Assembly: GCA_013140455.1 (NCBI GenBank)
Contig: JABFSU010000003.1
Location: 1-35,013, forward strand
Source of the DNA: Nitrospira sp.
GTDB taxonomy: Bacteria; Nitrospirota; Nitrospiria; Nitrospirales; Nitrospiraceae
Length of the DNA stretch: 35,013 nt
Reading direction: 5' to 3'
Shown here piece by piece: positions 317 through 34,772 of the stretch. Position 1 is the first letter of the stretch; each line of letters opens with the position of its first letter. The position numbers and the translations under genes were made by a program. Below the pieces are notes generated by a model. The model worked only from the letters and a program-made list of their open reading frames with translations, searched no databases and was not told the origin of the DNA.

Positions 317-1462
317 TTAAAATGGGCGTGGGCTCGATAATGCCGGATTCGCCGGTGTGGATTCTCTCGGGCACCCGGCCGGTGATGACGCCTGGGCCGG
401 CAATGACGCCTCTCCAAATACATGAGATGCGATCGCTTTGGCAAGGTCTGACGAAAATTCCTGTTGAATAACCCGTAGGGCTTTCGCAGTGGCTTCGCGA
501 TCGGACAGATGCCCTTCCTTCCCGCCACGCGATACCGCGCCGACCACACGCTGCGTCGAGGACTCCACCACATCGAAGTCACTGCACCACCGCACATACT
601 TAAATTGCGGATCGCGCACATCGATCGGCCAGATACGCACGGTGCCACGCACCAGCAATTCGCTGCCGGCGTGTTGGGTGGTCACGTGCAATCCCTCACG
701 AATGAGCCCTTCCGTGAGCGAACCTTGGATCGGCTCAGCATGATCCCCGGTCACCTCGACCGCGAGCACCAGGTTCGTCGAAAGAAATTGATCCAGTTCA
801 TTCGACAATTCATTCACACGATACGCTGCCGGAGTCCCCTGGCCGGAGGAACGGATGACGCGTAGATCCGCGTTGTACGCGTCACGCATCACAAGATTCC
901 TTGTGGCACGCCGGAGATCCCGCACTTTCGTCAACTTGTCGGTGGTCTGCCTCGCTTCGAGCAGATCGGTTTCAATCGTCCGATCCAGCTCGCGCATCTT
1001 GTCCATCATCGCCGCTTCGCCCTGACCGCGATGCATCCCCGCTAAGACATAATGCATCCCCTGATGCCGGTCGTACCAGGTATCGAGAACCTTTACGTTC
1101 TCGAGTACCTTGTCGGTTGAAACATTCGTCACCTGATCAAGCGTCAACCGTCGTTCGGTATTCGTCGATCCCCGGTTTTCGACGAGGAGATACGACTCCC
1201 AATCCTTCGCCTGCGCCGCGACCTCGGCCTTAAAAATTCTGGAGACGGCGGCGTAAGCCTGATCGGTCGCCGCACTCTTGTTCGTGGCCTGGCCCTGCCC
1301 CAGCAGATATTGGCTTGAAGAAAATTCGGCCGCCGCTCCATCCACCCACGCCGGCTTCGATTTCCCCCCAAACCACGTGCAACCCGAGAGGGCCATTCCT
1401 GCAATGAACAGCAAGCCCAGCGGCAACACGACCTCACGCCTCAGACTGGCCAGTGCCCTCAT
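317..1462 (-). CDS. LPP20-family lipoprotein with extended C-terminal domain
   Basis: Predicted outer-membrane lipoprotein of 381 residues. The N-terminus is a lipoprotein signal with lipobox ALSGC (Cys28). Residues ~35-130 resemble the LPP20 domain: PAWVDG, then a segment with GQGQA and an alanine-rich helix holding AYAAVSRIFKAEVAAQ. A second exported domain of ~200 residues follows (LVLAVEVTGD..., LLVRGTVRIWPIDV), possibly another small alpha/beta fold typical of assembly lipoproteins. The ATG at 1462 overlaps the upstream stop codon as ATGA, so translation is probably coupled. It belongs to the same operon as LpoB-like and COG3014-like genes. LPP20 relatives include FlgP-type envelope proteins, but no flagellar gene is nearby, so the exact role is open. 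Family assignment is moderately sure; function is not. Confidence 0.72.
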   Translation of the reverse strand: MRALASLRREVVLPLGLLFIAGMALSGCTWFGGKSKPAWVDGAAAEFSSSQYLLGQGQATNKSAATDQAYAAVSRIFKAEVAAQAKDWESYLLVENRGSTNTERRLTLDQVTNVSTDKVLENVKVLDTWYDRHQGMHYVLAGMHRGQGEAAMMDKMRELDRTIETDLLEARQTTDKLTKVRDLRRATRNLVMRDAYNADLRVIRSSGQGTPAAYRVNELSNELDQFLSTNLVLAVEVTGDHAEPIQGSLTEGLIREGLHVTTQHAGSELLVRGTVRIWPIDVRDPQFKYVRWCSDFDVVESSTQRVVGAVSRGGKEGHLSDREATAKALRVIQQEFSSDLAKAIASHVFGEASLPAQASSPAGCPRESTPANPALSSPRPF

Positions 1463-2949
1463 TGAATTACCCGTTGGATCATGACCGTCGTTTGTCCCGG
1501 AGCCAGAGTGAGCGCGCGCCCGCTCTCCGTCGCCGGATTGTTTCCCCGCCCAACCAGCTGCACCGACGCGGCATACTGCCCGGGATCCACCCATGCTCGC
1601 GCGATGTGAATTTCGTCAGGAAGAGTCTGCCAGCTCCGCTTGTCGGCCTCTTCCGAAGCCACCGCCCATCCCTTCGTCAACAGGCTGACGATGAGTCCCA
1701 CCCAAGGGGCGGCATCTTTGCCGGCCGCCTGCTGGGCCCCGCGTGTGGCTCCTTCGGCCAGCGCAAACTTGACCGCTGCACGAGCCAATGCCTTGACCGT
1801 GATGCCGGGCAAACGATCGGAGAGACTCTTATCTGCCAGCGCGGAGATGTTCTGCCCCAACTCTGAGGAAACCCTCACCTGCCGACCGGTCTCGCCAACC
1901 AGCGTCAACTGCTCCACAGGCACCTGCGTTTTCTGCGTCACCAATCGAGGCAACGCCACGCGCACGACTCGACCATTGAGGCCATACAAGACACTATCAA
2001 CACCCCGGTTCTGATGCCGGGGCGACTGAGAAAACCCACGATTCAACAACACGAGCTGCAAGGCATCCAAACTGATTGGCAAGTCAAGAAAGCGGTCCTC
2101 CTTACGAGGGGCGCGGCCATTATAACTGATCAACACCACTTGAGCGAGGCCTCGCTGCGCCGCACTGGCCTGCCACACCGTGTCAGGGAAGAGCCGCCGG
2201 TACTCCTCAAACTCATTCGTCAAATTGAGCGCGTCAGCGGTCCGCAAGAGATCGGCACGGAGTTGTGTCGGGACCGGCGTGCGCGCCCAGCCTCGGTTGG
2301 CTTCATACGCGTCATAGGCCTTCCGGTAGGCAATGAACGCGTTATTCACGTCATCCGTTGCCTCATAGAGAATGCCCGTCAGATATCGGGCAAACCCGTC
2401 CTCCCGATAGCTCGCCTTGTCCTTGGCCTTATCCGTGAGCACGTTGAGTCGGTGATCGATCCGGCGGGCTTCCACCAAAGCTTCCTGAAGCTGCCCCTGC
2501 GCGGCGTAGTTCAGCGCCTTGACGACATTGATCATCACATGTTCGTAGGGATCGCCTTCATAAAATAAGGCATTGTCATTGGTGAGAAAAGCAGCGGCTT
2601 CGGAGCGGACCGTCCTGGTATAGAGCCGTTCCACTTCCTCCTCGGCCTGCTCCAAGACGGCGCTGCTCTGCTGGTAGTCGCCGGCCAATTGCAGCGTCAT
2701 CCCGCGATCCATGCCGTACAACAGGCGACTCTTCTCTCCGTAGGATTTTTCAGCTTGTTGAACAATCGCGTCTGCCTGCTTGGCATCGCCTGCAGCCAGA
2801 CTCTGCTCAATCAACAGATAGCGATTAACGGAAGGACCACAGGCGGTCAACAGCAGCAGCCCGGCTAGGACAGCAAATCGAAGGGATGAACGGGCAGCGC
2901 GCCACGGCGCCAGAGGACTGTGGGCAACACGTGAGAAGAGAGGGCTCAA
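1459..2949 (-). CDS. COG3014-like TPR-type lipoprotein
   Basis: Exported lipoprotein of 496 residues; lipobox LLTAC with Cys37. The first ~200 residues are alpha-helical repeats (SLAAGDAKQADAIVQQAEK, LAGDYQQSSAVLEQAEEEVE, ALNYAAQGQLQEALVEARRI), typical of the COG3014 family. The C-terminal part (~240-496) contains ALPRLVTQKTQVPVEQLTL and a Trp-rich end (RSWQTLPDEIHIARAWVDPGQY). In gammaproteobacteria, relatives sit beside lpoB-like genes, and the same arrangement appears here, which supports the call. The start chosen is a TTG at 2949, 14 bases after the LpoB-like gene; an AGGA lies 6 bases upstream, and no ATG gives a complete signal peptide. The product probably resides at the outer membrane. 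Molecular function is unknown. Confidence 0.72.
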   Translation of the reverse strand: MSPLFSRVAHSPLAPWRAARSSLRFAVLAGLLLLTACGPSVNRYLLIEQSLAAGDAKQADAIVQQAEKSYGEKSRLLYGMDRGMTLQLAGDYQQSSAVLEQAEEEVERLYTRTVRSEAAAFLTNDNALFYEGDPYEHVMINVVKALNYAAQGQLQEALVEARRIDHRLNVLTDKAKDKASYREDGFARYLTGILYEATDDVNNAFIAYRKAYDAYEANRGWARTPVPTQLRADLLRTADALNLTNEFEEYRRLFPDTVWQASAAQRGLAQVVLISYNGRAPRKEDRFLDLPISLDALQLVLLNRGFSQSPRHQNRGVDSVLYGLNGRVVRVALPRLVTQKTQVPVEQLTLVGETGRQVRVSSELGQNISALADKSLSDRLPGITVKALARAAVKFALAEGATRGAQQAAGKDAAPWVGLIVSLLTKGWAVASEEADKRSWQTLPDEIHIARAWVDPGQYAASVQLVGRGNNPATESGRALTLAPGQTTVMIQRVIQ

Positions 2950-2963
2950 CAGAGTCCTGGAGC

Positions 2964-3572
2964 CTAGAAAATGGTTCGCTTCTTTTCGATGACCTTCTTA
3001 ATCTTCTTCTGCCCGTACCACACCTTGGCATTGCTCTCCAGATCGATCATCTGGAGATCCACTTGATAGAACACGGCTTTGGTCGCGTCCGCTTCGTCGA
3101 GGATCGTCGAAATCGTGCCCTTCATCATATAGTCGGCGCCGATTTCTTTTCCGGGAGCCTTTTGCGTATCCTCACGGGAATACATCGCCTGTTCCTTGCG
3201 CTCGGTGCGCAGTTCGTCGCGCTCGCCCTTGCCGGCAACGAAGGTGACTTTCTGCGAATTCGTCAGCTCACGCTCAAGGTCGGTCACAAACGTCTGGACG
3301 CTGATGTGTTCGTGGCTGCTGTTCAGAATCGTGCCGACCACCACAACAGGCTGGCGATGCTTCGCTTGGGTGAAGTTGCCAAGCCATGGGTAACTGAGTG
3401 ATTCCTTCACCATGGTCTCGGCCACCATCCGTGAGTCAGTATCGTTCCAGCGCCCGCTCAGGTCAGTGACCACACCGGCATCGATACGCGTCACTTTCGT
3501 TTCATGCCCGCACCCCGCCAGAGTCAACACCGCCACCGCTCCCAGCGCCAGCAATCCAGACTTCATCACCAT
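2964..3572 (-). CDS. LpoB-like penicillin-binding-protein activator lipoprotein
   Basis: Lipoprotein of 202 residues with lipobox LTLAGC (Cys21). The body matches the LpoB/COG3417 pattern: a short linker, TDLSGRWNDTDSRMVAETMV, then PVVVVGTILNSSHEHISVQTFVTDLERELTNS, GADYMMKGTI and a final strand with YQVDLQMIDLESNAKVWYGQ. In Escherichia coli, LpoB reaches from the outer membrane through the peptidoglycan and activates the synthase PBP1b; the family is also related to FlgO. Here the LPP20 and COG3014 neighbours point to an envelope module rather than to one proven PBP partner. The ATG at 3572 follows GGAGGG (3582-3587) by 9 bases; an ATG two codons later (3566) is a weaker alternative. Confidence in the family is good; confidence in the PBP role is modest. 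Confidence 0.78.
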   Translation of the reverse strand: MVMKSGLLALGAVAVLTLAGCGHETKVTRIDAGVVTDLSGRWNDTDSRMVAETMVKESLSYPWLGNFTQAKHRQPVVVVGTILNSSHEHISVQTFVTDLERELTNSQKVTFVAGKGERDELRTERKEQAMYSREDTQKAPGKEIGADYMMKGTISTILDEADATKAVFYQVDLQMIDLESNAKVWYGQKKIKKVIEKKRTIF

Positions 3573-3627
3573 CACACCAGTCCCTCCACTGAAAATCTTC
3601 ATAGAAAGAGACCGCCAAACCGGCGGG

Positions 3628-4194
3628 TTATCGCGCCAACCGCTTGTCTTCTTCTTTCTCCAGCCGATCAAACATCTTATCGGCATTCTTCCGGACAAAG
3701 TCGCGCACCTGGGCATTCAGCTCTTTCGCCTGCTCCAGATTGTTCTTCATTTCTTCGAGGTTCAGCTTGGTGAGGACGTAATAGGTATTGGTCTTGTCGT
3801 CTTTATACCGATCAATCGGACGCACGCCGCTCAGCGTCGCCGTCGTGACCGTCTTGATCGCCCGCTCGACATTCTGCTCTTCCGTGTTTCTGGTGAAGTC
3901 GCCGGCTGTCGTCGACGCCGCGTAATCTCTCATCAGATAACCGGTGTACGTTTCAAAGGTCTTGGCAATTTCAGCGCGCGCGCGATTCTCTGCCGTATCC
4001 CAGGCCAGAGGCTCGTTCCGCACACCGACCACCGCCCCCACGCCATAGAACGCCTTGCTATCTTTCTCGTTGAACGCTCCCGACCCCTTCTGCACCCACT
4101 TTGGAGGGCCACCGCAAGCGGCAAGTCCGACCAAGAGAACAATGGCAAGCCCGGTGCCGGCCAGTCTCGTAAAACGCGCCTGCGATGTAGCCAT
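3628..4194 (-). CDS. LPP20-family lipoprotein, first gene of the operon
   Basis: Lipoprotein of 188 residues; lipobox VGLAAC with Cys27. After GGPPKWVQKG it carries the LPP20 signature: GVGAVVG, then an N/A/R-rich helix (WDTAENRARAEIAKTFETY) and the end strand KTNTYYVLTKLNLEEMKNN. The C-terminal ~40 residues form a charged helix (QAKELNAQVRDFVRKNADKMFDRLEKEEDKR). ATG 4194 was chosen because AAGGAGG sits 6 bases upstream; the upstream in-frame ATG (4209) overlaps that ribosome binding site. This gene leads the minus-strand operon and has a plausible sigma70 promoter at 4263-4291. It is a smaller paralogue of the lipoprotein at 317-1462. Location is probably the outer membrane; function is unproven. 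Confidence 0.75.
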   Translation of the reverse strand: MATSQARFTRLAGTGLAIVLLVGLAACGGPPKWVQKGSGAFNEKDSKAFYGVGAVVGVRNEPLAWDTAENRARAEIAKTFETYTGYLMRDYAASTTAGDFTRNTEEQNVERAIKTVTTATLSGVRPIDRYKDDKTNTYYVLTKLNLEEMKNNLEQAKELNAQVRDFVRKNADKMFDRLEKEEDKRLAR

Positions 4195-4262
4195 GCGATC
4201 CTCCTTCATAACGGGAATTGATGACGTGGAGCCTCAAACGGTTCGAAAATTCGCGTGAATTC

Positions 4263-4291
4263 ATGCTAACATGCGTCTCTAGTTCAGTCAA
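4263..4291 (-). promoter_or_regulatory. Sigma70-type promoter for the lipoprotein operon
   Basis: Reading the minus strand, TTGACT (plus 4286-4291) is followed after exactly 17 bases by TAGCAT (plus 4263-4268). The first matches the -35 consensus in 5 of 6 positions and the second matches TATAAT in 4 of 6. It lies 69 bases upstream of the LPP20 gene start, in the divergent gap of 176 bases. No other promoter of similar quality was seen in this gap. Confidence 0.5.
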
Positions 4292-4370
4292 CGCAACGGC
4301 ATGTGAACGGTTGACGAGACTGCACGTATTCAATCCACTCCGTGATGAATTTGTAGAGGAGACACACACT

Positions 4371-4541
4371 GTGGCCGACGTTCAAATAGAAGACGGCATC
4401 ATTAAGATTGGCAGCCTAGACATTCAGGATCCCAAGGCCGCCGCGGTTCTCGCGGAATACCCGCAAGTACGCTGGCCTGAAATCACCAGACGCGCGTTGA
4501 AGATCGGACTGGGCTATCTCAAGGGTGGGGGAAAAGACTAG
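4371..4541 (+). CDS. 56-residue conserved-looking protein of unknown function
   Basis: Small soluble protein (GTG start, 56 residues) beginning MADVQIEDGIIKIGSLDIQD and ending in a cationic helix with ALKIGLGYLKGGGKD. A strong AGAGGAG (4355-4361) lies 9 bases before the GTG, so I prefer this start to the in-frame upstream ATGs, which would add a non-conserved-looking, poorly composed leader. No motif, signal peptide or membrane segment is visible. It diverges from the lipoprotein operon. Its stop overlaps the stop of the opposite caspase-fold gene by a few bases, so the two transcripts converge and would overlap. Family unknown. Confidence 0.6.
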   Translation: MADVQIEDGIIKIGSLDIQDPKAAAVLAEYPQVRWPEITRRALKIGLGYLKGGGKD

Positions 4542-5932
4542 GGTCTTGAGGGGCCATCGGCCTGACTCACCGCTGTCCGGGCTCGGGAGTCGGTTCCGCC
4601 CAACTCCAGATAACGGCGAAACGCTTCGACGGACTTCGCCCGATCCTTTAGATGATCGGCGTAGAGCGTACCGAGCGAGAAATAGACATCCTGATATCCG
4701 GCATTGACCTTCAGCGCCTGCAAGAGCGCCTGTTCGGCCTCCTGGAAACTTCCCCGTTTTTCATAGATCAACCCCAGTGTGTAGTACGAGTCAGGGTTCG
4801 TGGGCGCGTGCTTGACGGCCAACTGGCCGGCGGTCAATGCCTCTTCAAGATTGGGCAGGATCTCCAACCGGAGATAACTTTTCAGCACATAGGCATCACC
4901 GAATTCTGGATTGAATTCAATCGAGCGATTCAGTCGTTCCAAAGCTTCCTCTACGCGCTTCCCCTCCTGGAGCAATGCAAACGCCTGATCGTATTGCGCC
5001 CTCGCCGCCTGTTGCCGTTCAGCCGGCGTCTGAGGCCCCGCGCCGAGCACAAACGCTGCTTTGCGCCCTTCGATGAGAATGATATCGCCATCCCCGTCCA
5101 GCCTGGCGGATATCGGATGTTGCTGCCCCTGCGTGACGCCGGGAAGTTCTTTCTCAAGATACGCTCCCAACTCGGACGCCATCAGCCAACCATTTTTGTT
5201 CAGATCCGCCGCACCCTGTAACCCAGTCAAAAGCGCTTTGACGAACAGACTGGCATCCCCGACACGCTTGGACACTTCTCCCTTATCCCCGGCAGTAATC
5301 ACCTGCATCGCACGCCGTTCTGTGTCGTCCTCCGGTGACAACCGGCCTTCGAGAGACAATTGCTGAGGTGCCGTGGCTTCCCAGCCCCGGACCGCGGTAT
5401 CGAGAATGAGCAGGGTGTGTTTCGCCGCCAGGCGTCGGGTAAATTCCTTGAGCTGGTCGAATGTGATGGACTTGGCAACATTATTGATCTGCGCGTCCGA
5501 CGGAACCAGGTAGCCGAGATCCTTCCCATCGGCATCTTGCGTCATTCCGGAATGCCCCACGTAGAAGAGCACCAGACGATCCATCCGCCCAACCTTGCGC
5601 GGCAACATGTCCGACAAGAGCTGCTGCAGATGGCGAAAGCTGGCATCCTTGTCATAGACCTCAACCACTTCGTCGAAGCCCATCTGACGAAAGGCCTGGG
5701 CCACAGTCTTGGCGTCCGCCAATGCCCCGGGAATCGATGGGGCCAGCAGATAGTGCTCTACCCCAACGACGACCGCCCATGACTTATAGTAGAGCCCCTC
5801 AGGTTTCCCTAACTGAGCGGAGGCGGGAGACGATCCACTCAAACAGGCAAGCAAAAACAGCCCGAGACCAAAACTCACGGCACACAAGTTTCTAGTGAAC
5901 ATAGTTGTGATAGATCGAAGAAATATTCGCAT
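4538..5932 (-). CDS. Exported caspase-fold (peptidase C14) protein with C-terminal TPRs, catalytic Cys apparently lost
   Basis: Protein of 464 residues with a signal peptide (~1-40, ending PASAQ). Residues ~50-290 form a caspase/metacaspase p20-like domain: KSWAVVVGVEHY, GALADAKTVAQAF, then DRLVLFYVGHSG with the expected catalytic His127. The following strand reads TLLILDTAVRG; active relatives have D-x-C here, but this protein has D178-T179-A180, so the nucleophile seems to be replaced by Ala. Residues ~300-455 contain about four TPRs (VEEALERLNRSIEFNPEFGDA, PNLEEALTAGQLAVKHAPTN, FQEAEQALLQALKVNAGY). The start at 5932 follows GGAG by 5 bases; ATG 5902 is an alternative. It is probably a periplasmic scaffold rather than a protease. 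The fold call is fairly sure; loss of activity is inferred from one aligned motif. Confidence 0.8.
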   Translation of the reverse strand: MRIFLRSITTMFTRNLCAVSFGLGLFLLACLSGSSPASAQLGKPEGLYYKSWAVVVGVEHYLLAPSIPGALADAKTVAQAFRQMGFDEVVEVYDKDASFRHLQQLLSDMLPRKVGRMDRLVLFYVGHSGMTQDADGKDLGYLVPSDAQINNVAKSITFDQLKEFTRRLAAKHTLLILDTAVRGWEATAPQQLSLEGRLSPEDDTERRAMQVITAGDKGEVSKRVGDASLFVKALLTGLQGAADLNKNGWLMASELGAYLEKELPGVTQGQQHPISARLDGDGDIILIEGRKAAFVLGAGPQTPAERQQAARAQYDQAFALLQEGKRVEEALERLNRSIEFNPEFGDAYVLKSYLRLEILPNLEEALTAGQLAVKHAPTNPDSYYTLGLIYEKRGSFQEAEQALLQALKVNAGYQDVYFSLGTLYADHLKDRAKSVEAFRRYLELGGTDSRARTAVSQADGPSRP

Positions 5933-25765: not shown

Positions 25766-26200
25766 GTGAAGCTTTCCAAGAAAAGCGAATACGGACTCCG
25801 GGCGCTCATTGAACTCACGCTCGCCTACGAACAAGCGACGCTACAGCGCCATCAAATTGCGAAGCGCCAGCATATCCCCATCGAGTTTCTCGAACAAATT
25901 CTTCTGGCCCTGAAACGGGCGGGACTACTGGCCAGCCGACGAGGCCTCAAGGGAGGCTATACCCTCATCAAGCCCCCCGGGGAGATCACCGTCGGTCAAG
26001 TGATCCGCATATTGGATGGCCCGCTTGCCCCCATCGGCTGTGTGAGCAAGACCGCCTACCAAAAGTGTCGGGACTGCCCCTACGCAGACAAGGCTGAGTG
26101 CCCCGTCCAGCATGTGATGGGCCCGGTCCGCGATGCCATAGCCGGCATCCTCGATAATTGTACGCTCAACGATTTTGCATCAAGTCATCGCAAGGGATAA
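25766..26200 (+). CDS. Rrf2-family transcriptional regulator with Cys cluster
   Basis: DNA-binding protein of 144 residues. The winged helix-turn-helix (~1-70) has MKLSKKSEYGLRALIELTL, HQIAKRQHIPIEFLEQILLALKRAGLL and RRGLKGGYTLIKP. A dimerisation helix follows. The regulatory loop carries Cys92, Cys101, Cys104 and Cys112 (C-x8-C-x2-C-x7-C), a spacing unlike that of IscR or NsrR; an iron-sulfur or metal site is likely. The GTG start at 25766 has little ribosome binding site. The TauE/SafE gene starts 14 bases after its stop, so it probably controls that permease; cysteine or sulfite could be the signal. Family call is firm, ligand is inference. Confidence 0.9.
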   Translation: MKLSKKSEYGLRALIELTLAYEQATLQRHQIAKRQHIPIEFLEQILLALKRAGLLASRRGLKGGYTLIKPPGEITVGQVIRILDGPLAPIGCVSKTAYQKCRDCPYADKAECPVQHVMGPVRDAIAGILDNCTLNDFASSHRKG

Positions 26201-26214
26201 CCCAAGGGATACCC

Positions 26215-27048
26215 ATGGATCAGATCGTCCTCGTCCTCATTACCTTCGTCGCCGCAACCGTCAATGGCGCGCTGGGCTACGGCTTCTCTTCGATTACGAT
26301 GCCGGTGGCCCTGCTCTTTTACACGAATCGCATCTTGAATCCCGCCATGGTGCTCGTGGAGCTGGTCCTGAATAGTTATGTTCTCTTTCTGAACCGCCAA
26401 AACATACCCAATATTTTCCGGCGCGTGGTGCCGATCTTGATCGGACTGGCCGTCGGCGTCGCCATCGGCAGCTACATCCTTTCGATGGTGCAACCGGCCT
26501 GGGTGAAATTCGTCACCTACTTCATGTTGCTCCCCTTGATCCTGCTTCAGGCGGCCGGTATCCGCAAACCGATCAAAGCTGAACAAGCCATCGGGGTCCC
26601 GTTCGGTGTCGGCATCGGCACCCTCTATTCCGTTACGACCATCTCCGGGCCGCCGCTGGCGTTACTGTTCAATAATCAAGGATATGAAAAGCAGGATTTT
26701 CGCGCGGCGCTGGGCGTGATTCGGGTTGCGGAAGCGACGCTGACGGCCATCGCTTACGGCATCATCGGATTTTACAGCGTTGCGAGCATGGAGGTTATGC
26801 CGTACATCGTGCCGAGCGTCTTACTGGGTATTCCGCTCGGCGCGTTCTTGATCCGCTGGATGGATCCGGAAACCTTCCGGCGGCTCTGCATGAGCTTTGA
26901 TGCCGTCGTCGTCGGATTTGGACTTTCAAGGGTTCTTGTCGAGCTGAAACTCGCAAGCACCTTCACTACCTACAGCATTCTTTCAATCGTCGTCCTGCTC
27001 AACGCGTTTCTCCTGTACCGGTATTTTCAAGGCCGCGCCGCACCGTAA
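26215..27048 (+). CDS. TauE/SafE (TSUP) family membrane permease
   Basis: Inner-membrane protein of 277 residues with about eight hydrophobic segments, the typical length. The opening VLVLITFVAATVNGALGYGFSSITMPVAL and the second-half SVTTISGPPLALLFNNQGYEKQDFRAAL are the two repeated TSUP motifs. The family carries sulfite, sulfoacetate and related organosulfonates out of or into the cell. ATG 26215 follows AAGGGA by 5 bases. The Rrf2 regulator ends 14 bases upstream, and the pair looks like an operon devoted to a sulfur compound. Nothing in the protein tells the substrate. Confidence 0.9.
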   Translation: MDQIVLVLITFVAATVNGALGYGFSSITMPVALLFYTNRILNPAMVLVELVLNSYVLFLNRQNIPNIFRRVVPILIGLAVGVAIGSYILSMVQPAWVKFVTYFMLLPLILLQAAGIRKPIKAEQAIGVPFGVGIGTLYSVTTISGPPLALLFNNQGYEKQDFRAALGVIRVAEATLTAIAYGIIGFYSVASMEVMPYIVPSVLLGIPLGAFLIRWMDPETFRRLCMSFDAVVVGFGLSRVLVELKLASTFTTYSILSIVVLLNAFLLYRYFQGRAAP

Positions 27049-28086: not shown

Positions 28087-29952
28087 ATGGCCAGTGCAGC
28101 CCTGTCTCCAGAATTACTCAATACCCTCCACAACAAGGCCACGCAACTCCGTATCGAAAGCGTTCGAGCCACATCTGAAGCGGCCAGCGGCCATCCATCG
28201 AGCTGCTGCTCTGCCGCCGACATCGTGGCGACCCTCTTCTTTTCCGTCATGCGCTACGACCCGAAAAACCCCAAAGCCCCGAACAGCGATCGATTCGTCC
28301 TCTCAAAAGGACATGCCGCCCCCCTGCTCTATGCCGCCTGGGCGGAAGCAGGACTGTTCCCCAAGAGCGACCTCTTGAAGTTGCGGACATTAGCATCAGA
28401 TCTCGAAGGCCACCCGACACCCCGGCTTTCTTTTGTCGATATGGCCACGGGCTCGCTCGGACAAGGTCTCCCTGTTGGAATCGGCATTGCCCTGAACGCG
28501 AAATCCGTCGATAAGCTTGACCACCGGACCTACGTCTTGATGGGCGACGGCGAGTCCGTCGAAGGATCAAACTGGGAAGCGGCTGAAGTGGCCCGGCATC
28601 ACGGCCTGGATAATCTCTGCGCCATCGTCGATGTGAACCGGCTGGGGCAGAGCGATCCCACCATGTTGCAACACAACATGGAGGGCTACCGCGCGCGCTG
28701 GTCGGGATTCGGCTGGCATGCCATCGTGGTCGACGGTCATGACATCGCTGCGCTCGTTGCCGCCTTTGACGAGGCGTCCCGCACAAAAGGGAAACCGACC
28801 GTCTTGCTGGCCAAAACCTTTAAGGGGCACGGCCTTTCATTCATGGCGGACAGCCCCAATTGGCATGGGAAGCCGGTCCCGAAGGGCGAAGAGACGCAAA
28901 AAGCGATCGATGAATTGACCAGGCAACTGAAACCCGGCAACGGAACCGTGCAAGTGAACCGGCCCGCCGCAGTCACACCGGCGCCGGCGACAAAAACTGC
29001 GCTTCCCCCTTCACCCTATAAAGTGGGCGAGGCCGCCGCGACGCGCGAAGCCTTCGGCCTGGCACTCGAAGCCATAGGAAGCGTGAACTCCTCTGTGGTC
29101 GGCTTGGACGCAGACGTCAAGAACTCCACCTACACAGATAAGTTCGGCAAGAAGTTCCCGAATCGGTTCTTCGAAAACTTCATCGCCGAGCAAAACATGC
29201 TGGGCGCGGCCGCCGGCCTCGCCGCCTGCGGAAAAGTTCCGTTCGTCGCCACCTTCGCCGCGTTCTTTACGCGCGCCTACGACTTCATCCGGATGGCCGC
29301 CATCAGTCAATCCAACATCAAGCTGGTCGGCACCCATGTGGGCGTCAGCATCGGCGAGGACGGCCCGTCGCAAATGGGCCTCGAAGATATTGCCATGATG
29401 GCGGCACAGCCCGGCATCATCGTCCTCTATCCGTCGGACGCCACCTGCACCTATCGTCTGGTCGAAGCCGCAGCCAACCACAAGGGGATGGTCTACATCC
29501 GCGCCGGACGCCCGAAATCTCCGGTGCTCTATGGACCGGAAGAGACGTTCCCGATCGGGGGCAGCAAAGTCCTCCGCCAAAGCGCGAACGACGCGCTCAC
29601 GATCGTGGCAGCCGGCGTCACATTATTTGAAGCCCTCAAAGCCCACGATCAATTGAAGGCCGCGGGCATTGCCGTGCGCGTCATCGATCTCTACAGCATC
29701 GCTCCCATCGACCAAGCCACCCTCATCGCCAGCGCACGCGCCACCCACGGCCGTCTCCTCACCGTGGAAGACCACTACGCGCACGGCGGACTCGGCGATG
29801 CCGTCCTGAGCGCGGTCGGGGCAGAAGGCGTGAAGGTCCACAAGCTCGCCGTCCGGACGATTCCCCATAGCGGCAAACCGGATGAACTCGTCGATCATTT
29901 TGGCATCGGAGCGCGATCCATTGTCGAAGCGGCCAAGCAGATCATCAAGTAA
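28087..29952 (+). CDS. tkt: Transketolase (short, animal-type)
   Basis: Thiamine-diphosphate enzyme of 621 residues moving two-carbon ketol units in the pentose phosphate pathway. The pyrophosphate-binding half has SGHPSSCCSAADI, LSKGHAAPLLYAAW, TGSLGQGLPVGIGIAL and MGDGESVEGSNWEA. The pyrimidine-binding half has FFENFIAEQNMLGAAAGLA and THVGVSIGEDGPSQM. A Pro/Ala/Thr-rich linker (~285-315) joins them. The length fits the ~620-residue TKT/TKTL type rather than the ~660-residue E. coli type. AAGGAG lies 6 bases before ATG 28087. The Crp/Fnr gene begins four bases after its stop codon, so co-transcription is plausible, but a long hairpin sits between them. Confidence 0.94.
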   Translation: MASAALSPELLNTLHNKATQLRIESVRATSEAASGHPSSCCSAADIVATLFFSVMRYDPKNPKAPNSDRFVLSKGHAAPLLYAAWAEAGLFPKSDLLKLRTLASDLEGHPTPRLSFVDMATGSLGQGLPVGIGIALNAKSVDKLDHRTYVLMGDGESVEGSNWEAAEVARHHGLDNLCAIVDVNRLGQSDPTMLQHNMEGYRARWSGFGWHAIVVDGHDIAALVAAFDEASRTKGKPTVLLAKTFKGHGLSFMADSPNWHGKPVPKGEETQKAIDELTRQLKPGNGTVQVNRPAAVTPAPATKTALPPSPYKVGEAAATREAFGLALEAIGSVNSSVVGLDADVKNSTYTDKFGKKFPNRFFENFIAEQNMLGAAAGLAACGKVPFVATFAAFFTRAYDFIRMAAISQSNIKLVGTHVGVSIGEDGPSQMGLEDIAMMAAQPGIIVLYPSDATCTYRLVEAAANHKGMVYIRAGRPKSPVLYGPEETFPIGGSKVLRQSANDALTIVAAGVTLFEALKAHDQLKAAGIAVRVIDLYSIAPIDQATLIASARATHGRLLTVEDHYAHGGLGDAVLSAVGAEGVKVHKLAVRTIPHSGKPDELVDHFGIGARSIVEAAKQIIK

Positions 29953-29954
29953 TC

Positions 29955-29987
29955 GGTTGAGCTCATCCCCCACGGATGAGCTCAACC
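29955..29987 (+). promoter_or_regulatory. Perfect 14-bp hairpin at the tkt-Crp/Fnr junction
   Basis: GGTTGAGCTCATCC (29955-29968) and GGATGAGCTCAACC (29974-29987) pair perfectly around a CCCAC loop. It starts two bases after the tkt stop codon, and the best start codon of the next gene (TTG 29957) lies inside the 5' arm. It has no U-tract. It could end tkt transcripts, or gate translation of the regulator, or be an operator. Confidence 0.7.
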
Positions 29988-30649
29988 ATATTCCTCTGCT
30001 CAAGATTCTCTCCAACGCAGACCGCCAACGCGTGCTTCAGGACTTGACCGAACAGCACTACACCAAGCGCGATGTCATTTTCCGGGAAGGCGATCCGACC
30101 GAATACTTCCACATCGTGAAGGAAGGCACGGTCAAATGCGTCAAATCGAGCCCCGAAGGGAAAGAATGCACGCTGAAGATGCTGATGCCCGGCGATCTCT
30201 TTTGCTGCGACGCCGCCGCCTTTGAGGGAGCCCGCCATCCGGGCACGGCGCAACCGATGGGCGATGTCAGCATCTTGCGGATGAACAAGAAGTCCTACTT
30301 CGACATGCTGCGCCGCAATCCCGAAGCCGCCATTGAAGTCATCAAGCATCTCGGGAATCGCCTCAATGAAGCCCAAGAGAAAGCCAAGGTCATGGCCCTC
30401 GACCGCGCTGACCAGCGACTGGCCTCGCTCCTGGTCGATCTGGCGACGAAGAACGGCGTGAAAGACCCGCAAGGCATCAAGCTCCCGATGAGACTGACCC
30501 GCCAGGATATGGCCAACATGGTGGGCACGACGACCGAGACCGCCATTCGCATCATGAGCCGGTTCACACGCGAACGGCTCGTGTCCGGAACGGCGACCCG
30601 TCTCATTATCCGGAATCTCGCCGGCCTCAAAGCCCTCGCCTCTGCGTAA
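29957..30649 (+). CDS. Crp/Fnr-family transcriptional regulator
   Basis: Regulator of 230 residues. The cyclic-nucleotide-type beta-barrel (~15-125) has KRDVIFREGDPTEYFHIVKEGTVKCV and MLMPGDLFCCDAAAFEG. A dimer helix follows (EVIKHLGNRLNEAQEKAK). The DNA-binding domain (~155-228) has the helix-turn-helix RLTRQDMANMVGTTTETAIRIMSRFTRE. There is no N-terminal Fnr-type Cys cluster; Cys residues sit in the barrel instead. TTG 29957 is the only start that gives normal length without deep overlap with tkt, and it lies inside the hairpin at 29955-29987 with no clear ribosome binding site. ATG 29976 is out of frame; ATG 29882 would overlap tkt by 71 bases. The adjacent nirK is its likely target. Confidence 0.88.
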   Translation: MSSSPTDELNHIPLLKILSNADRQRVLQDLTEQHYTKRDVIFREGDPTEYFHIVKEGTVKCVKSSPEGKECTLKMLMPGDLFCCDAAAFEGARHPGTAQPMGDVSILRMNKKSYFDMLRRNPEAAIEVIKHLGNRLNEAQEKAKVMALDRADQRLASLLVDLATKNGVKDPQGIKLPMRLTRQDMANMVGTTTETAIRIMSRFTRERLVSGTATRLIIRNLAGLKALASA

Positions 30650-30687
30650 GACCCTCCGGACCGGTATTTCCAACATATTTCAAAAAC

Positions 30688-30701
30688 ATGATGCGCGTCA
30701 T
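30688..30701 (+). promoter_or_regulatory. Candidate Crp/Fnr-type operator before nirK
   Basis: ATGATGCGCGTCAT contains TGA-N6-TCA, the shared core of Crp and Fnr sites, with flanking AT. Its centre (30694.5) lies 29.5 bases before TATGCT (30724-30729), the best -10 match. That puts the site at -41.5 from a start at 30736, the standard class II activator position. No -35 of quality is at the usual place, as expected of an activated promoter. Experimental proof is lacking. Confidence 0.55.
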
Positions 30702-30723
30702 ATTTTTTTGACAGCGCCCTCCT

Positions 30724-30828: not shown

Positions 30829-31794
30829 ATGATGAACAGAGGATCACAACAGGTAGTCGCAATGGCAGGATCGGCTGCCATTGCACTGGCCGGACTGATA
30901 GGACTCCCGTCCTATGCGTCCGCAAAGACCCATGACATTCGCATGACTGCCGTCGAGTCCGACATCATCATTGACGGCGGCGGGGAGAAGTACGCCGCCT
31001 GGACCTTCAACGGCACGATGCCCGGCCCGGTCGTCCGCGTCACCGAAGGCGACACCATCAACTTCACCCTGACCAACCCCGCGACGAACAAGAACCCGCA
31101 CGCGATGGACTTTCATGCGGCAGAGATCGACTTCTTGAAGAACTACAAGGCCATCAACGCCGGCGAAACGATCAGCTATACCTTCGTCGCCAAGAAGCCC
31201 GGGATCTTCTTCTATCACTGCGGTGCACCGCCCATGATTCAACACGTCGCGCGCGGCATGTTCGGCGCCATCATCGTCGATCCGAAAGACGCATCGGTCT
31301 GGCCCAAGGCGGACCGTGAATACGTGCTGGTCCAATCCGAATACTTCAAAAACCCCGGCGACGTGCAAGCGATGTTCGACCGGAAGTTCGACGGCATGAT
31401 GTTCAACGGCGGCATCTTCAAATATCACCCGTTTGTCACGGGCGGCGGCAAGCTCGACGCCAAGCCGGGTGAGCGCGTGCGCGTCTATTTCGTCAACGCC
31501 GGCCCGAACGAGTTCTCCTCGTTCCACCCCATCGGTGAGATCTGGGACAATGTGTATGAAAGCGGCAATCCGGCCAATAAGCTGACCGGCGTGCAGACCT
31601 ATGTGGTCGGACCGGGCAGCGCCGCAACCTTCGACGTCGTCGTGGAATCGGCCGGCGCCTACCCGCTGGTCACCCACTCCCTGACCGGTGCCCTTCGTGG
31701 CGCAATCGCCGTCCTCTTGGCATCCCCCGATGCCAAGCCCTCGACGAACTTGATGCCCATGGTACCGTGGGAACTTCCCGCAAAGACGAAGTAA
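30829..31794 (+). CDS. nirK: Copper-containing nitrite reductase, class II-like
   Basis: Periplasmic enzyme of 321 residues that reduces nitrite to NO. Signal peptide ~1-32 (ending SYASA). Two cupredoxin domains. Type 1 copper ligands: His91, Cys131, His139, Met144. Type 2 ligands: His96, His130, His283. Catalytic residues: Asp94 (in HAMDFH) and His233 (in SSFHPIG). The Cys-to-His spacing of eight (FYHCGAPPMIQHVARGM) is one shorter than in class I enzymes and matches class II (AniA-type). ATG 30829 has AGAGGAG 6 bases upstream; a second ATG follows directly. A Crp/Fnr regulator lies just upstream with a candidate site at -41.5. All key residues are present, so it should be active. Confidence 0.95.
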   Translation: MMNRGSQQVVAMAGSAAIALAGLIGLPSYASAKTHDIRMTAVESDIIIDGGGEKYAAWTFNGTMPGPVVRVTEGDTINFTLTNPATNKNPHAMDFHAAEIDFLKNYKAINAGETISYTFVAKKPGIFFYHCGAPPMIQHVARGMFGAIIVDPKDASVWPKADREYVLVQSEYFKNPGDVQAMFDRKFDGMMFNGGIFKYHPFVTGGGKLDAKPGERVRVYFVNAGPNEFSSFHPIGEIWDNVYESGNPANKLTGVQTYVVGPGSAATFDVVVESAGAYPLVTHSLTGALRGAIAVLLASPDAKPSTNLMPMVPWELPAKTK

Positions 31795-31806: not shown

Positions 31807-31836
31807 GCTCCGGCTGGTCTTTCGACCAGCCGGAGC
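31807..31836 (+). terminator. Stem-loop after nirK
   Basis: GCTCCGGCTGGTC (31807-31819) and GACCAGCCGGAGC (31824-31836) form a perfect 13-bp stem with a TTTC tetraloop, 12 bases after the nirK stop. No U-tract follows, as with the other hairpins in this window. Confidence 0.65.
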
Positions 31837-31871: not shown

Positions 31872-32225
31872 ATGCCGAACAGACGCACGATCCTTCTGAT
31901 CGGTCTGAGCCTCTTCCTCTTAAGAGACGACACCGCTCAAGCTGAGTCGACACACGAGCGTGTCACGCTCATGCTCAGCGGCCCGGACTGCCCATCGATA
32001 CGACAGAGAATAACCACGGCGCTCCATCAGCAACCCGGTGTGCTCAATGTGGATCCGGATCTGATGCCCGACCATGTACTCGTCGATATCGTTCAGTCGA
32101 CGTTGACCGATACGACACTGGCGGCGACGGCACATACCGCGATCGCCGGAGCCCGGTGCCGGGCGGAGATCATGAAATCCTGCATCACGGCAGGGCCGTC
32201 GAGCCACCACACCGATCCGCCGTAA
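31872..32225 (+). CDS. Exported HMA-like small protein
   Basis: Protein of 117 residues with a signal-like N-terminus (RTILLIGLSLFLLRDDTAQA). The remainder looks like a ferredoxin-like heavy-metal-associated domain: RVTLMLSGPDCPSIRQRITTALHQQPGV, then LVDIVQSTLTDTTLAATAHTAIAGARCRAEI. Normal HMA domains have G-M-x-C-x-x-C; here only one Cys (GPDCPS) is present, with two more Cys near the end (RCRAEIMKSC). It might bind copper for the neighbouring NirK or act as a scaffold. The start at ATG 31872 has only a weak ribosome binding site. No established family is certain. Confidence 0.55.
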   Translation: MPNRRTILLIGLSLFLLRDDTAQAESTHERVTLMLSGPDCPSIRQRITTALHQQPGVLNVDPDLMPDHVLVDIVQSTLTDTTLAATAHTAIAGARCRAEIMKSCITAGPSSHHTDPP

Positions 32226-32267
32226 GTGCCGCCGACGGACCGACCCAGTCCCACTGACGGGCAGGCT

Positions 32268-32900
32268 ATGTCGATCAGAAAACGAGAGGCCATATTACGG
32301 AGTCTGTTGGCTCGGCTCTGCCTGTGCGCCATTGCATCGGCGTTTCTCCTGCCCGCTCAGACCCAGGCCCAAGAAGCGCTGCTGGAAATATTGCCCATTC
32401 GGCCGTTCAACTTCGACGTCGCCTTGCGTCAACAATCGTTCGCGCCGAATGATCGGGAAGTGACGCTGCAGGCCGGCATCACGGCGCTGCGATACGGCGA
32501 CGGGGAAGTGCGGGTCGGGTATCAGTATTTCAGTATCCACACCGACGATTTTCGAACCGATCAGCACGCGCTGTTTCTTAACCCGCGCTGGAATAACGTT
32601 CTGGACCTCCTTGAGTTTCCAGCCTCGATGCCGATCGGGCGAATGCTCAAGCATCTCTTTTTCGGCCCGCTCGAAGACCGTGCCGTTCCATATATCGGCG
32701 CGCTGATCGGCACGGTCATTTCAGGACAGGGACGCACCTCGCCGGGCCTGTTATATGGCGGCCAAACCGGCGTGCGCTTTCCCGTGGCGCAGGGCATCTC
32801 GCTCGACCTGAGCCTGCAATTTACGCAGTACGATGTGAACTTTCGCGGGGAATCGGGACAATCGCAACAATGGCTGTTTCTCACCGGATTTCGATATTGA
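32268..32900 (+). CDS. Putative outer-membrane beta-barrel protein
   Basis: Protein of 210 residues with a signal peptide (~1-32, ending TQAQ). Alternating strands with aromatic ends (VTLQAGITALRYGDGEVRVGYQYFSIH, GISLDLSLQFTQYDVNF) and a C-terminal Tyr after FLTGFR are typical of small outer-membrane barrels. ATG 32268 is preceded by GGGCAGG; a GTG at 32226 is possible but would overlap the stop region of the preceding gene. It lies in the cluster after nirK. No enzyme or pore motif is recognised; the barrel call rests on strand pattern and C-terminal aromatic residue. Confidence 0.6.
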   Translation: MSIRKREAILRSLLARLCLCAIASAFLLPAQTQAQEALLEILPIRPFNFDVALRQQSFAPNDREVTLQAGITALRYGDGEVRVGYQYFSIHTDDFRTDQHALFLNPRWNNVLDLLEFPASMPIGRMLKHLFFGPLEDRAVPYIGALIGTVISGQGRTSPGLLYGGQTGVRFPVAQGISLDLSLQFTQYDVNFRGESGQSQQWLFLTGFRY

Positions 32901-32932
32901 GCCGGCTTCTGCGAGCAGATCGGAGCGCCCCG

Positions 32933-33988
32933 ATGACGGACACCCATGCACACCGCACCGCCGCCTCTCGATACCTGAGGCCGTCGATAGTACCGATGAT
33001 CGCCTGGCTGTTCCTCCTCCCGCTGACGCAGGGCTGCGGTCTGATCTTCGATGCCGTGCATCAGGTGTACCCCGTGACGATCAACGAAATGGATAAGATC
33101 TGCCGACGGCAGCAAGTCCAAGTCGGAATGGCCGTCGAACCGTTTCGGCCGTTTGTATTTCCCGCCGTCTGGACCGACGAAGGCGCGCGAGTGACCGGGC
33201 TCGATACCGAGCTGGTCCGGGCAGTGAGTGATGCCCTTACGATCCATTGCGGTACCCCCGTAGTTCCGGCGTTGCACCTGGTTCGTTTCAGAGATTTATT
33301 TCTGCTGCTGAACGAAGGGCAACTGGATTTCTTCGTCTCCGCAGTGGCAGCCGGAACACCGTCGCCCGGCCGGTCCGGATTCGCCTATTCCACGCCCTAC
33401 TTCTCACAGGGAGGCATCGGCGCCATCGCCACCAGGCCGGAGGTCATCGACTTGCTCCAAACTCGCGTCAGAACCGCCGGCAGAAGCACACCCCGCGAAC
33501 AACTCCTGAGCGGCCTGACCGTCGCCGTACAAGACAGCACGGCCGCACACCTCTATGCCGAAGCCAAGATCCATGCAGCCGGAGTGCTCGTGTGCGATTC
33601 GCTTCCCGCAGCCTTCGAGCACGCCGCCGCCGGCCTGTCGCCGCCGATCGATGTGATCATCGGAGCGCACCCGGTCTTGAATTTCATGGTCCACACGACG
33701 CGGCGGGACTGGCAACTCCTGGCGAAGGACGAACACACACCGCTGTGGTTCACGCTCGCCGACTATGCCGTTGTGATGGCGGAAGAAAGCTACACCTTGC
33801 GCTGGTTCATCAACGACGTCATTTTTCACCTGCACGAATCAGGGCGATTGGAACAGATGCGGCATCGCTGGATCGACGAAACCTATGCCTATCCACGCCG
33901 GGCATCGGCGGAAGGGCTCCCGTTCGACGTGCAAAAAATGCCGGCTCACTATGCCCAGGGAACCTGCCGGGCAGCATCGCCACACTGA
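32933..33988 (+). CDS. Family 3 solute-binding lipoprotein (ABC-type, orphan)
   Basis: Lipoprotein of 351 residues; lipobox LTQGC (Cys35). A periplasmic binding fold type II: VQVGMAVEPFRPFVFPAVW (start of lobe 1), GLDTELVRAVSDAL, LFLLLNEGQLDFFVSAVAAGTPSPGRSGFAYSTPYFSQGGIGAIA (hinge), LTVAVQDSTAAHLYA, and the last helices with WFINDVIFHLHESGRLEQMRHRWI. This is the SBP_bac_3 pattern used for amino acids and similar ligands. GGAG lies 7 bases before ATG 32933. No ABC permease or ATPase gene follows, so it may sense rather than import. Ligand unknown. Confidence 0.85.
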   Translation: MTDTHAHRTAASRYLRPSIVPMIAWLFLLPLTQGCGLIFDAVHQVYPVTINEMDKICRRQQVQVGMAVEPFRPFVFPAVWTDEGARVTGLDTELVRAVSDALTIHCGTPVVPALHLVRFRDLFLLLNEGQLDFFVSAVAAGTPSPGRSGFAYSTPYFSQGGIGAIATRPEVIDLLQTRVRTAGRSTPREQLLSGLTVAVQDSTAAHLYAEAKIHAAGVLVCDSLPAAFEHAAAGLSPPIDVIIGAHPVLNFMVHTTRRDWQLLAKDEHTPLWFTLADYAVVMAEESYTLRWFINDVIFHLHESGRLEQMRHRWIDETYAYPRRASAEGLPFDVQKMPAHYAQGTCRAASPH

Positions 33989-34007
33989 CCGAGTCAAAGG
34001 AGGTCGT

Positions 34008-34772
34008 ATGATCTACCGGCCATGGCTTCCACTCATCACCCTGGCAATCGCCATTGGAATCACACCCGTTCAGGCCGTCCCACCTGAACAACAACGCGCC
34101 GAGGCTGAAGAGACCGCGCGGCTCCTGGCAAAACTGCTCCAAGCGGGTCGCCTGGTGATTGAGCAGAATCAGCCCCTGATCGATGATGTCCACAAAGGAG
34201 ACAAAGGCTTTACCCCGGAGATGTTTGAACGGCAGATGTATGAGGTTTTTCGACAACGGACGGGGATCGATCTGAGCGCGCCGGCAACAAAAACGGCGTT
34301 GGCCGTGCCGCCTCTCGCGCGCACGCTCCTGCCGGCCTTGATTGAAGCCGGCAAGGATGTCGTCCGCGATGCGCAGGTCGTCATCAATCAGCGAGGAATC
34401 GGCTACAAGAATTTCATCCCTGCCACCTTCGGCAGCCAAACGGCGACACGCTTCTCCAAACGGTCTCGCGTCCAGCTGAAACAGACCACGATTCAACCGC
34501 GCAATCCCAAGAACGAACCTGATGAGTACGAGGCCTCTGTCCTTCGCTGGCTGGCGGGAAGGCCGAATAGTGAAGCCTATGTCAGCGAGTTGACCGAATC
34601 AGGAAAAACCCTGCGGGTCATGATGCCGATCTACTACCAGCGGGAATGTCTGGTCTGCCACGGCGAGCCGAAAGGGGAATGGGATATTTCAGGCTACCCC
34701 AAAGAGGGTTCCAGAGAAGGAGACCTGGCCGGAGCCATCAGCGTAAAGATCCCCTTACAAGCCGCCGAGTAA
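34008..34772 (+). CDS. DUF3365-type periplasmic monohaem c-type protein
   Basis: Exported protein of 254 residues with a signal peptide (~1-23). Residues ~30-200 match the DUF3365 (Tll0287-like) PAS-type sensor fold: LLQAGRLVIEQNQPLIDDVHKGDKGFTPEMFERQMYEVF, KNFIPATFG, YVSELTESGKTLRVMMPIYYQRECLVCHG. One haem c site CLVCH (214-218) is visible. AGGAGG lies 4 bases before ATG 34008. Family members serve as redox or gas sensors or as electron carriers. It ends the cluster that follows nirK. Haem attachment would need a cytochrome c maturation system elsewhere. Confidence 0.8.
   Translation: MIYRPWLPLITLAIAIGITPVQAVPPEQQRAEAEETARLLAKLLQAGRLVIEQNQPLIDDVHKGDKGFTPEMFERQMYEVFRQRTGIDLSAPATKTALAVPPLARTLLPALIEAGKDVVRDAQVVINQRGIGYKNFIPATFGSQTATRFSKRSRVQLKQTTIQPRNPKNEPDEYEASVLRWLAGRPNSEAYVSELTESGKTLRVMMPIYYQRECLVCHGEPKGEWDISGYPKEGSREGDLAGAISVKIPLQAAE

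Follow-up and report, generated by a model that had tools for sequence, protein, structure and literature searches.

The window analysed here is the 35,013-nucleotide stretch of Nitrospira sp. contig JABFSU010000003.1 (assembly GCA_013140455.1), which spans one entire contig (C101) of a Nitrospira-type genome. Close to its right end, downstream of the copper nitrite reductase gene nirK, are genes coding for a small predicted outer-membrane barrel, an orphan solute-binding protein (SBP) and a c-haem protein of the DUF3365 family. Comparison of their sequences and surroundings makes it very probable that these three genes, referred to below as the trio, form one inherited envelope module of the Nitrospiraceae. 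The genes are as follows.

32268..32900, + strand: core gene 1, outer-membrane barrel, eight-stranded with a helical insert (AlphaFold model, Foldseek).
32933..33988, + strand: core gene 2, orphan family-3 solute-binding lipoprotein (PF00497, lipobox).
34008..34772, + strand: core gene 3, stand-alone c-haem Cache protein, Tll0287-like/DUF3365 (PF11845, CXXCH).

The barrel, SBP and haem genes are present in the same order and on the same strand in 78 of 80 named loci, which are the best 80 of 89 from an SBP alignment scan with patterns built from near relatives. By title the records belong to Nitrospira, Nitrospiraceae or Nitrospirota/Nitrospirae, except that four of the loci come from records with the title Nitrosospira (CAADGJ, CAADGK); some genomes contribute several loci (three from CAADGK, and two each from JAOUHJ, CABVSA and DCZN), and the named loci overlap with the genomes numbered G below. 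In a second set of 59 genomes, 35 of them, counting the window's own, from the genus and 24 from other genera of the order, the SBP is matched in 26 and the barrel in 24, both solely inside the genus; DUF3365 proteins are found in 45, often in multiple copies, and nirK-like proteins in 54. The barrel model matches 85 of 395 genomes of the phylum, with every match listed falling within the window's family (f1) and spread over 10 genera, and within that family the barrel is present in 120 of 175 genomes, representing 14 of the 22 genera.

Two further genes lie between the trio and its upstream regulator in the window.

30829..31794, + strand: nirK, copper nitrite reductase (divergent; TIGR02376 and multicopper oxidase domains).
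31872..32225, + strand: HMA-like exported protein, a neighbour and not part of the core (sub-cut-off HMA match; conserved Cys, His and Met).

The gene order is transketolase (TKT), CRP/FNR-family regulator and nirK, followed by the genes of four exported products, and the contig ends 241 bases past the haem gene. The NirK protein scores 192.8 bits (E 9e-57) against TIGR02376, below the NCBIfam cut-off of 296.3, and contains multicopper oxidase domains; we class it as a divergent NirK because TIGR02376 is its best model by far, though under the cut-off. The first-pass annotation had described the HMA-like, barrel, SBP and haem genes as a closely packed cluster of four exported products following nirK on one strand. 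The open reading frame coordinates agree, with gaps of 42, 32 and 19 bases, and export is supported on inspection by a signal-peptide-like N-terminal stretch in each of the four products and by the SBP lipobox. The four genes and nirK do not hold together as a unit, since neither HMA nor nirK moves with the trio: 47 of the 80 trios have no nirK or HMA gene beside them, and the HMA gene is apart from the trio in two genomes, G017, which retains TKT-NirK-HMA-f33-f27, and G009, which retains TKT-HMA-f33-f27, each with the trio on another contig. Because these genomes keep HMA at the transketolase locus and the trio elsewhere, the trio appears to move as a block with HMA as a neighbour. Gene order in relatives, proposed earlier as a check on the cluster, is thus conserved for barrel, SBP and haem gene and does not include HMA, and the scattering named as evidence against it is seen for HMA and is not seen for the other three.

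Fragments of the haem gene, some accompanied by SBP fragments, occur at the lgt site in G001, G010, G012, G016, G018, G024, G030 and G031, eight genomes with no intact trio at that site, although G012 has an intact copy elsewhere. The fragment loci (L046-L052 and L054) lie between YtxH-Lgt and f9/f10, and the trio was apparently lost from some members of the genus. A second barrel-SBP copy that has no haem gene and adjoins CRP-type regulator genes is present in L115 and L117 (also G011 contig C4, L040).

The trio is directly downstream of nirK in 31 of the 80 named loci, including those of Ca. N. defluvii (L080) and UBC2 (L070); counted among the 31 are L077 and L090, with a stop inside the extracted nirK match, and L088, with a 156-base nirK fragment only. 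HMA intervenes in all but three of these 31 (28 loci), the exceptions being L069, L088 and L090. Two other loci, L059 and L089, are cut by the contig end, and L089 still has HMA. Unrooted trees of the SBP, the barrel and the haem protein contain the same single split, with support in the Shimodaira-Hasegawa-like approximate likelihood ratio test (SH-aLRT) of 100, 99 and 100, respectively; in all three it separates 47 loci (45 for the haem protein) from a group made up of the window, the two cut loci and the linked ones. In the nirK-linked half, all 31 named trios with enough upstream sequence are behind nirK, compared with none of 47 in the other half, where 23 trios are between f9 and YtxH-Lgt-AddA, 11 are behind a deaminase gene, 10 are elsewhere and three are cut. 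A further five genera of the family (g12, g13, g15, g20 and g21) also have the arrangement TKT-CRP-nirK-(HMA)-trio, extending across genera the association with nirK suggested at first. Among the 175 family genomes, 116 have both barrel and nirK, four the barrel only, 32 nirK only and 23 neither (Fisher p 4e-10, a test that, like the shuffling below, ignores kinship), and a hand count from the tables, restricted to genomes with completeness of 90% or more and contamination of 5% or less, gives 82, 3, 20 and 9 (p 2e-4). Judging from these comparisons, the link between the trio and nirK is old and lineage-wide and is not obligatory. A connection to complete ammonia oxidation (comammox) was considered and rejected, as the ammonia monooxygenase (AMO; PF02461) is absent from the window's clade (G000, G014, G022, G025 and G029) and elsewhere the trio is found both with and without AMO.

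The haem protein is 254 residues long and matches PF11845 at 93.6 bits (E 2e-26; cut-off 24.1). It has a profile match to Tll0287 (PDB 5B82), a direct sequence search of the PDB gave no match, and it contains no signalling domain, with one extra Pfam match below threshold. Its haem-binding motif in the window is CLVCH, and CXXCH is present in 76 of 79 aligned rows, the other three matches stopping short of the site. It had been described as a haem PAS-like protein; the haem assignment and the DUF3365 family stand, and a 2026 preprint puts the fold in the Cache superfamily instead (PMC12889525). In the same study, a stand-alone member with an axial Cys acts as a redox protein, and a signalling member without the axial Cys binds nitric oxide (NO) tightly (PMC12889525). 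Beyond residue 33, 75 of 76 rows of the trio protein have no Cys other than those of CXXCH, L072 having one extra, and the protein fits neither class because it is stand-alone yet without the axial Cys. It resembles the DUF3365/sCache_heme proteins such as Tll0287 in its Pfam family, its CXXCH and its stand-alone, exported nature, and differs from them in combining the absence of both an axial Cys and a signalling domain with an SBP and a barrel as fixed neighbours; the first absence separates it from Cluster 1 (redox type; Tll0287, P. putida) and the lack of fusion to a signalling domain from Cluster 2 (NO sensors).

The SBP scores 34.2 bits against PF00497 (SBP_bac_3; cut-off 26.4) and its modelled fold is likewise a family-3 one, from a model whose poor score (62.5 in the predicted local distance difference test, pLDDT) does not allow residue-level structural claims. 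A lipobox with Gly at +2 is present in 70 of the 80 loci, the other 10 being unfound partly owing to extraction, and by the lipoprotein sorting rule of E. coli this Gly suggests that the SBP is an outer-membrane lipoprotein. Four cysteines (Cys57, 106, 221 and 345) are invariant in 81 rows. The Arg and Asp positions that we take to bind amino acids in such proteins, placed by alignment, are unconserved; among 20 rows, column 146 contains G5, K5, R4, T2, H2, S1 and Y1, column 147 P14 and R6, and column 245 K6, D6, A5, N2 and E1. The trio SBP thus shares fold and profile with the family-3 proteins of the HisJ/GlnH type (PF00497), and differs from them in these positions, in its four invariant cysteines, in a conserved C-terminal tail, in its predicted outer-membrane anchoring, and in having no partner of the ATP-binding cassette (ABC) type: as noted in the first-pass annotation, no ABC permease or ATPase is found among the 26 main window proteins scanned.

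The AlphaFold model of the barrel (pLDDT 80.9) has eight strands and a helical insert at residues 111-135, between strands 4 and 5, and the nearest solved folds in Foldseek are NspA, OmpX, OmpW, OmpA and PagL. The modelled eight-stranded fold is shared with these outer-membrane proteins; the insert sets the trio barrel apart from them, as do the restriction of all its listed matches to family f1 and the lack of a named Pfam barrel family (none for the window barrel, and one of 26 members matching OMP_b-brl at E 0.003). A direct PDB sequence search with the barrel alignment gave no match. A PagL-like deacylase was rejected because PagL is just one of several similar barrel matches.

Three features describe how nirK is set out upstream of the trio.

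29882..30649, + strand: CRP/FNR-family regulator (cNMP_binding and HTH_Crp_2).
30685..30704, no strand assigned: CRP/FNR-type palindrome of the nirK promoter, TGA-N6-TCA, with a TANNNT -10-like hexamer starting 29 bases past its centre.
31807..31836, + strand: hairpin directly after nirK, 13-bp perfect stem, 4-base loop, no T-run.

The window and 29 of the 31 named nirK-linked loci have the regulator gene ahead of nirK. The regulator's Cys86, 108 and 109 are invariant in 30 rows and Cys96 is present in 28, which suggests a cysteine-based or metal-based signal. Counting the window, 28 of 30 loci have the TGA-N6-TCA palindrome between the regulator and nirK, where shuffling predicts 1.2; its consensus is AAACATGAC-N4-GTCATGTTT, and in all 28 a TANNNT hexamer starts 29 or 30 bases past the palindrome centre (1.6 expected for three offsets). 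Such spacing is the geometry of class-II CRP/FNR activation, and as read from the sequence the nirK promoter is one with a CRP/FNR-type palindrome at class-II spacing. The palindrome is close to unique in this genome; the only other site with one mismatch (C64:34021) is inside a coding frame, was taken as chance and was rejected as a second regulon member. It is mostly absent from the nirK genes checked in the unlinked half. The FNR-family palindrome of NnrR/FNR-regulated nirK loci is TTGAT-N4-ATCAA; the loci described here are like those in having a CRP/FNR regulator adjoining nirK, an FNR-family palindrome and class-II spacing, and differ in the consensus and in its near restriction to nirK. 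An NnrR has been proposed for a Nitrospira bin (PMC8510549), and we do not equate the present regulator with it.

The 77 bases between nirK and the HMA-like gene contain the perfect 13-bp hairpin. An uninterrupted stem of at least 9 follows nirK in 22 of 31 loci (a count that leaves out L077), compared with 0 of 30 after HMA, 3 of 34 after the barrel gene, 0 of 34 after the SBP gene and 1 of 32 after the haem gene; the hairpin sequence varies between loci. A terminator was rejected, as there is no T-run and a terminator scan gave 4 matches against 3.6 expected, with this hairpin not among them. We infer that it is a 3' end or processing signal setting nirK apart from the four genes.

As an explanation of the whole, we tentatively favour an outer-membrane-anchored, redox- or NO-responsive binding module, to which we give somewhat less than an even chance; an NO or redox function of the trio, judged by itself, is doubtful. 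In this module the SBP lipoprotein and the small barrel would sit together at the outer membrane, with the haem-Cache protein as their soluble periplasmic partner. With no counterpart of the Cys that is a fixed ligand in redox-type relatives, the haem may offer an open distal side to NO or redox-dependent ligands. NirK produces its NO in the periplasm, and the module would tie the NO or redox state of this compartment to the ligand binding of the SBP or to the state of the barrel, needing neither a transmembrane kinase nor an ABC transporter to do so. The nirK link would match the supply of the trio to NO production: nirK would be turned on by a CRP/FNR-type activator, and the four genes would be expressed at a lower level through read-through of the 3' hairpin.

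Several observations weigh against this module. Contact among the three proteins is a supposition, and the outer-membrane placement draws on the barrel model and the E. coli sorting rule. There is no nirK beside the trio in 47 of the 80 loci, the haem gene is missing from L115 and L117, and the palindrome is not enriched upstream of the trio in the unlinked half (3 of 42, with 2.9 expected). The missing axial Cys is not special to the trio, because this genome's other three DUF3365 proteins are without it too. Redox roles are given to stand-alone DUF3365 proteins, and one of them, when its axial Cys was removed, did not come to bind NO tightly (PMC12889525).

The redox behaviour of stand-alone DUF3365 proteins (PMC12889525) speaks for electron transfer, the best of the alternatives and in our estimate an unlikely one, in which the c-haem protein would exchange electrons with NirK or the nitrite-oxidising chain, the barrel and SBP serving as scaffold or docking parts. 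The single c-haem site in all rows that reach it and the placement of the trio immediately behind nirK in 31 of 80 loci are consistent with this; the Cys/His ligation that marks the studied stand-alone protein as redox-like is missing, however, the trio persists in 47 of 80 loci where no nirK is nearby, and no task is left for the SBP. In a scavenging system, the barrel would admit a solute that the SBP passes to an ABC importer encoded elsewhere, and the haem protein would be an unrelated passenger. The family-3 profile and fold of the SBP and the resemblance of the barrel model to OmpW and others agree with it, but the window encodes no ABC partner, the Gly at +2 points to the outer membrane, the alpha-amino-acid Arg and Asp positions are unconserved and the haem gene is retained in 78 of 80 loci, leaving scavenging quite improbable.

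Copper handling around NirK, close to what the first-pass annotation had suggested, would have the HMA-like protein and the trio load or protect the NirK copper. The HMA-like gene separates nirK from the trio in 28 of 80 loci, and its product has Cys, His and Met residues (C40, H68, C96, M101 and C104, invariant in 30 rows) that could bind metal. Its score against PF00403 is 22.2 bits, under the cut-off of 24.8, and its CXXC is not intact: the first Cys is present in 30 of 30 rows and the second position is variable (Q11, S4, F4, A4, I3 and others). This makes the case for copper weak, and since the trio also persists with no adjoining HMA and nirK and shows no copper motif on inspection, a role in NirK maturation is very unlikely. 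Equally unlikely is that the genes are packed neighbours by descent with no joint function: synteny can persist passively inside one family, and the whole TKT-CRP-nirK-trio-f31-f33-f27 stretch is retained in much of one half, but the intact trio block is found in at least three different places, some genomes have second trio copies, and remnants persist at one site where it has decayed.

Elsewhere in the window, an LPP20-like lipoprotein, an LpoB-like protein and a caspase-domain/tetratricopeptide repeat protein are encoded in a run on the minus strand (317-5932), and an Rrf2-type regulator is found beside a TauE/SafE-type exporter upstream of transketolase (25766-27048). On another contig, L181 2281-7588 (G000 contig C64) contains, by inspection, three tandem multicopper-oxidase-like genes, the last of which carries several bacterial immunoglobulin/cadherin-like repeats.

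The earlier statement that no system of this make-up has been described agrees with a search of the full-text literature, in which the barrel-SBP-haem trio was not found described (supplementary tables not being searchable and most subscription papers lying outside its scope). Passages of PMC6606698 and PMC12342949 mention NirK without the trio genes. The pairing of an outer-membrane lipoprotein with a periplasmic partner is reminiscent, as a likeness only, of YfiBNR-type envelope signalling, from which, as far as the available text of PMC4655355 describes it, the trio differs in lacking an inner-membrane cyclase and in its unrelated protein families. The parts of the trio are known folds, and the combination is apparently unusual and new.

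As nitrite oxidisers, Nitrospira are widespread, and some are complete ammonia oxidisers. According to passages of PMC6478695 and PMC8510549, nirK is present in Nitrospira, a known NO reductase is absent and the control of NO is not understood. It is quite unlikely, though it would be a new kind of envelope device, that the haem-Cache protein reads periplasmic NO or redox state together with an outer-membrane-anchored SBP fold and a dedicated barrel, with no kinase or transporter, and helps to keep NirK-derived NO at safe levels in nirK-bearing Nitrospira that have no known NO reductases. The trio nonetheless provides a testable candidate for NO sensing or buffering in Nitrospira, consisting of three concrete proteins that are behind nirK in half of the family. 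If the favoured module is correct, it would be a case of a stand-alone haem-Cache protein with fixed partners, and of an orphan solute-binding fold placed at the outer membrane.

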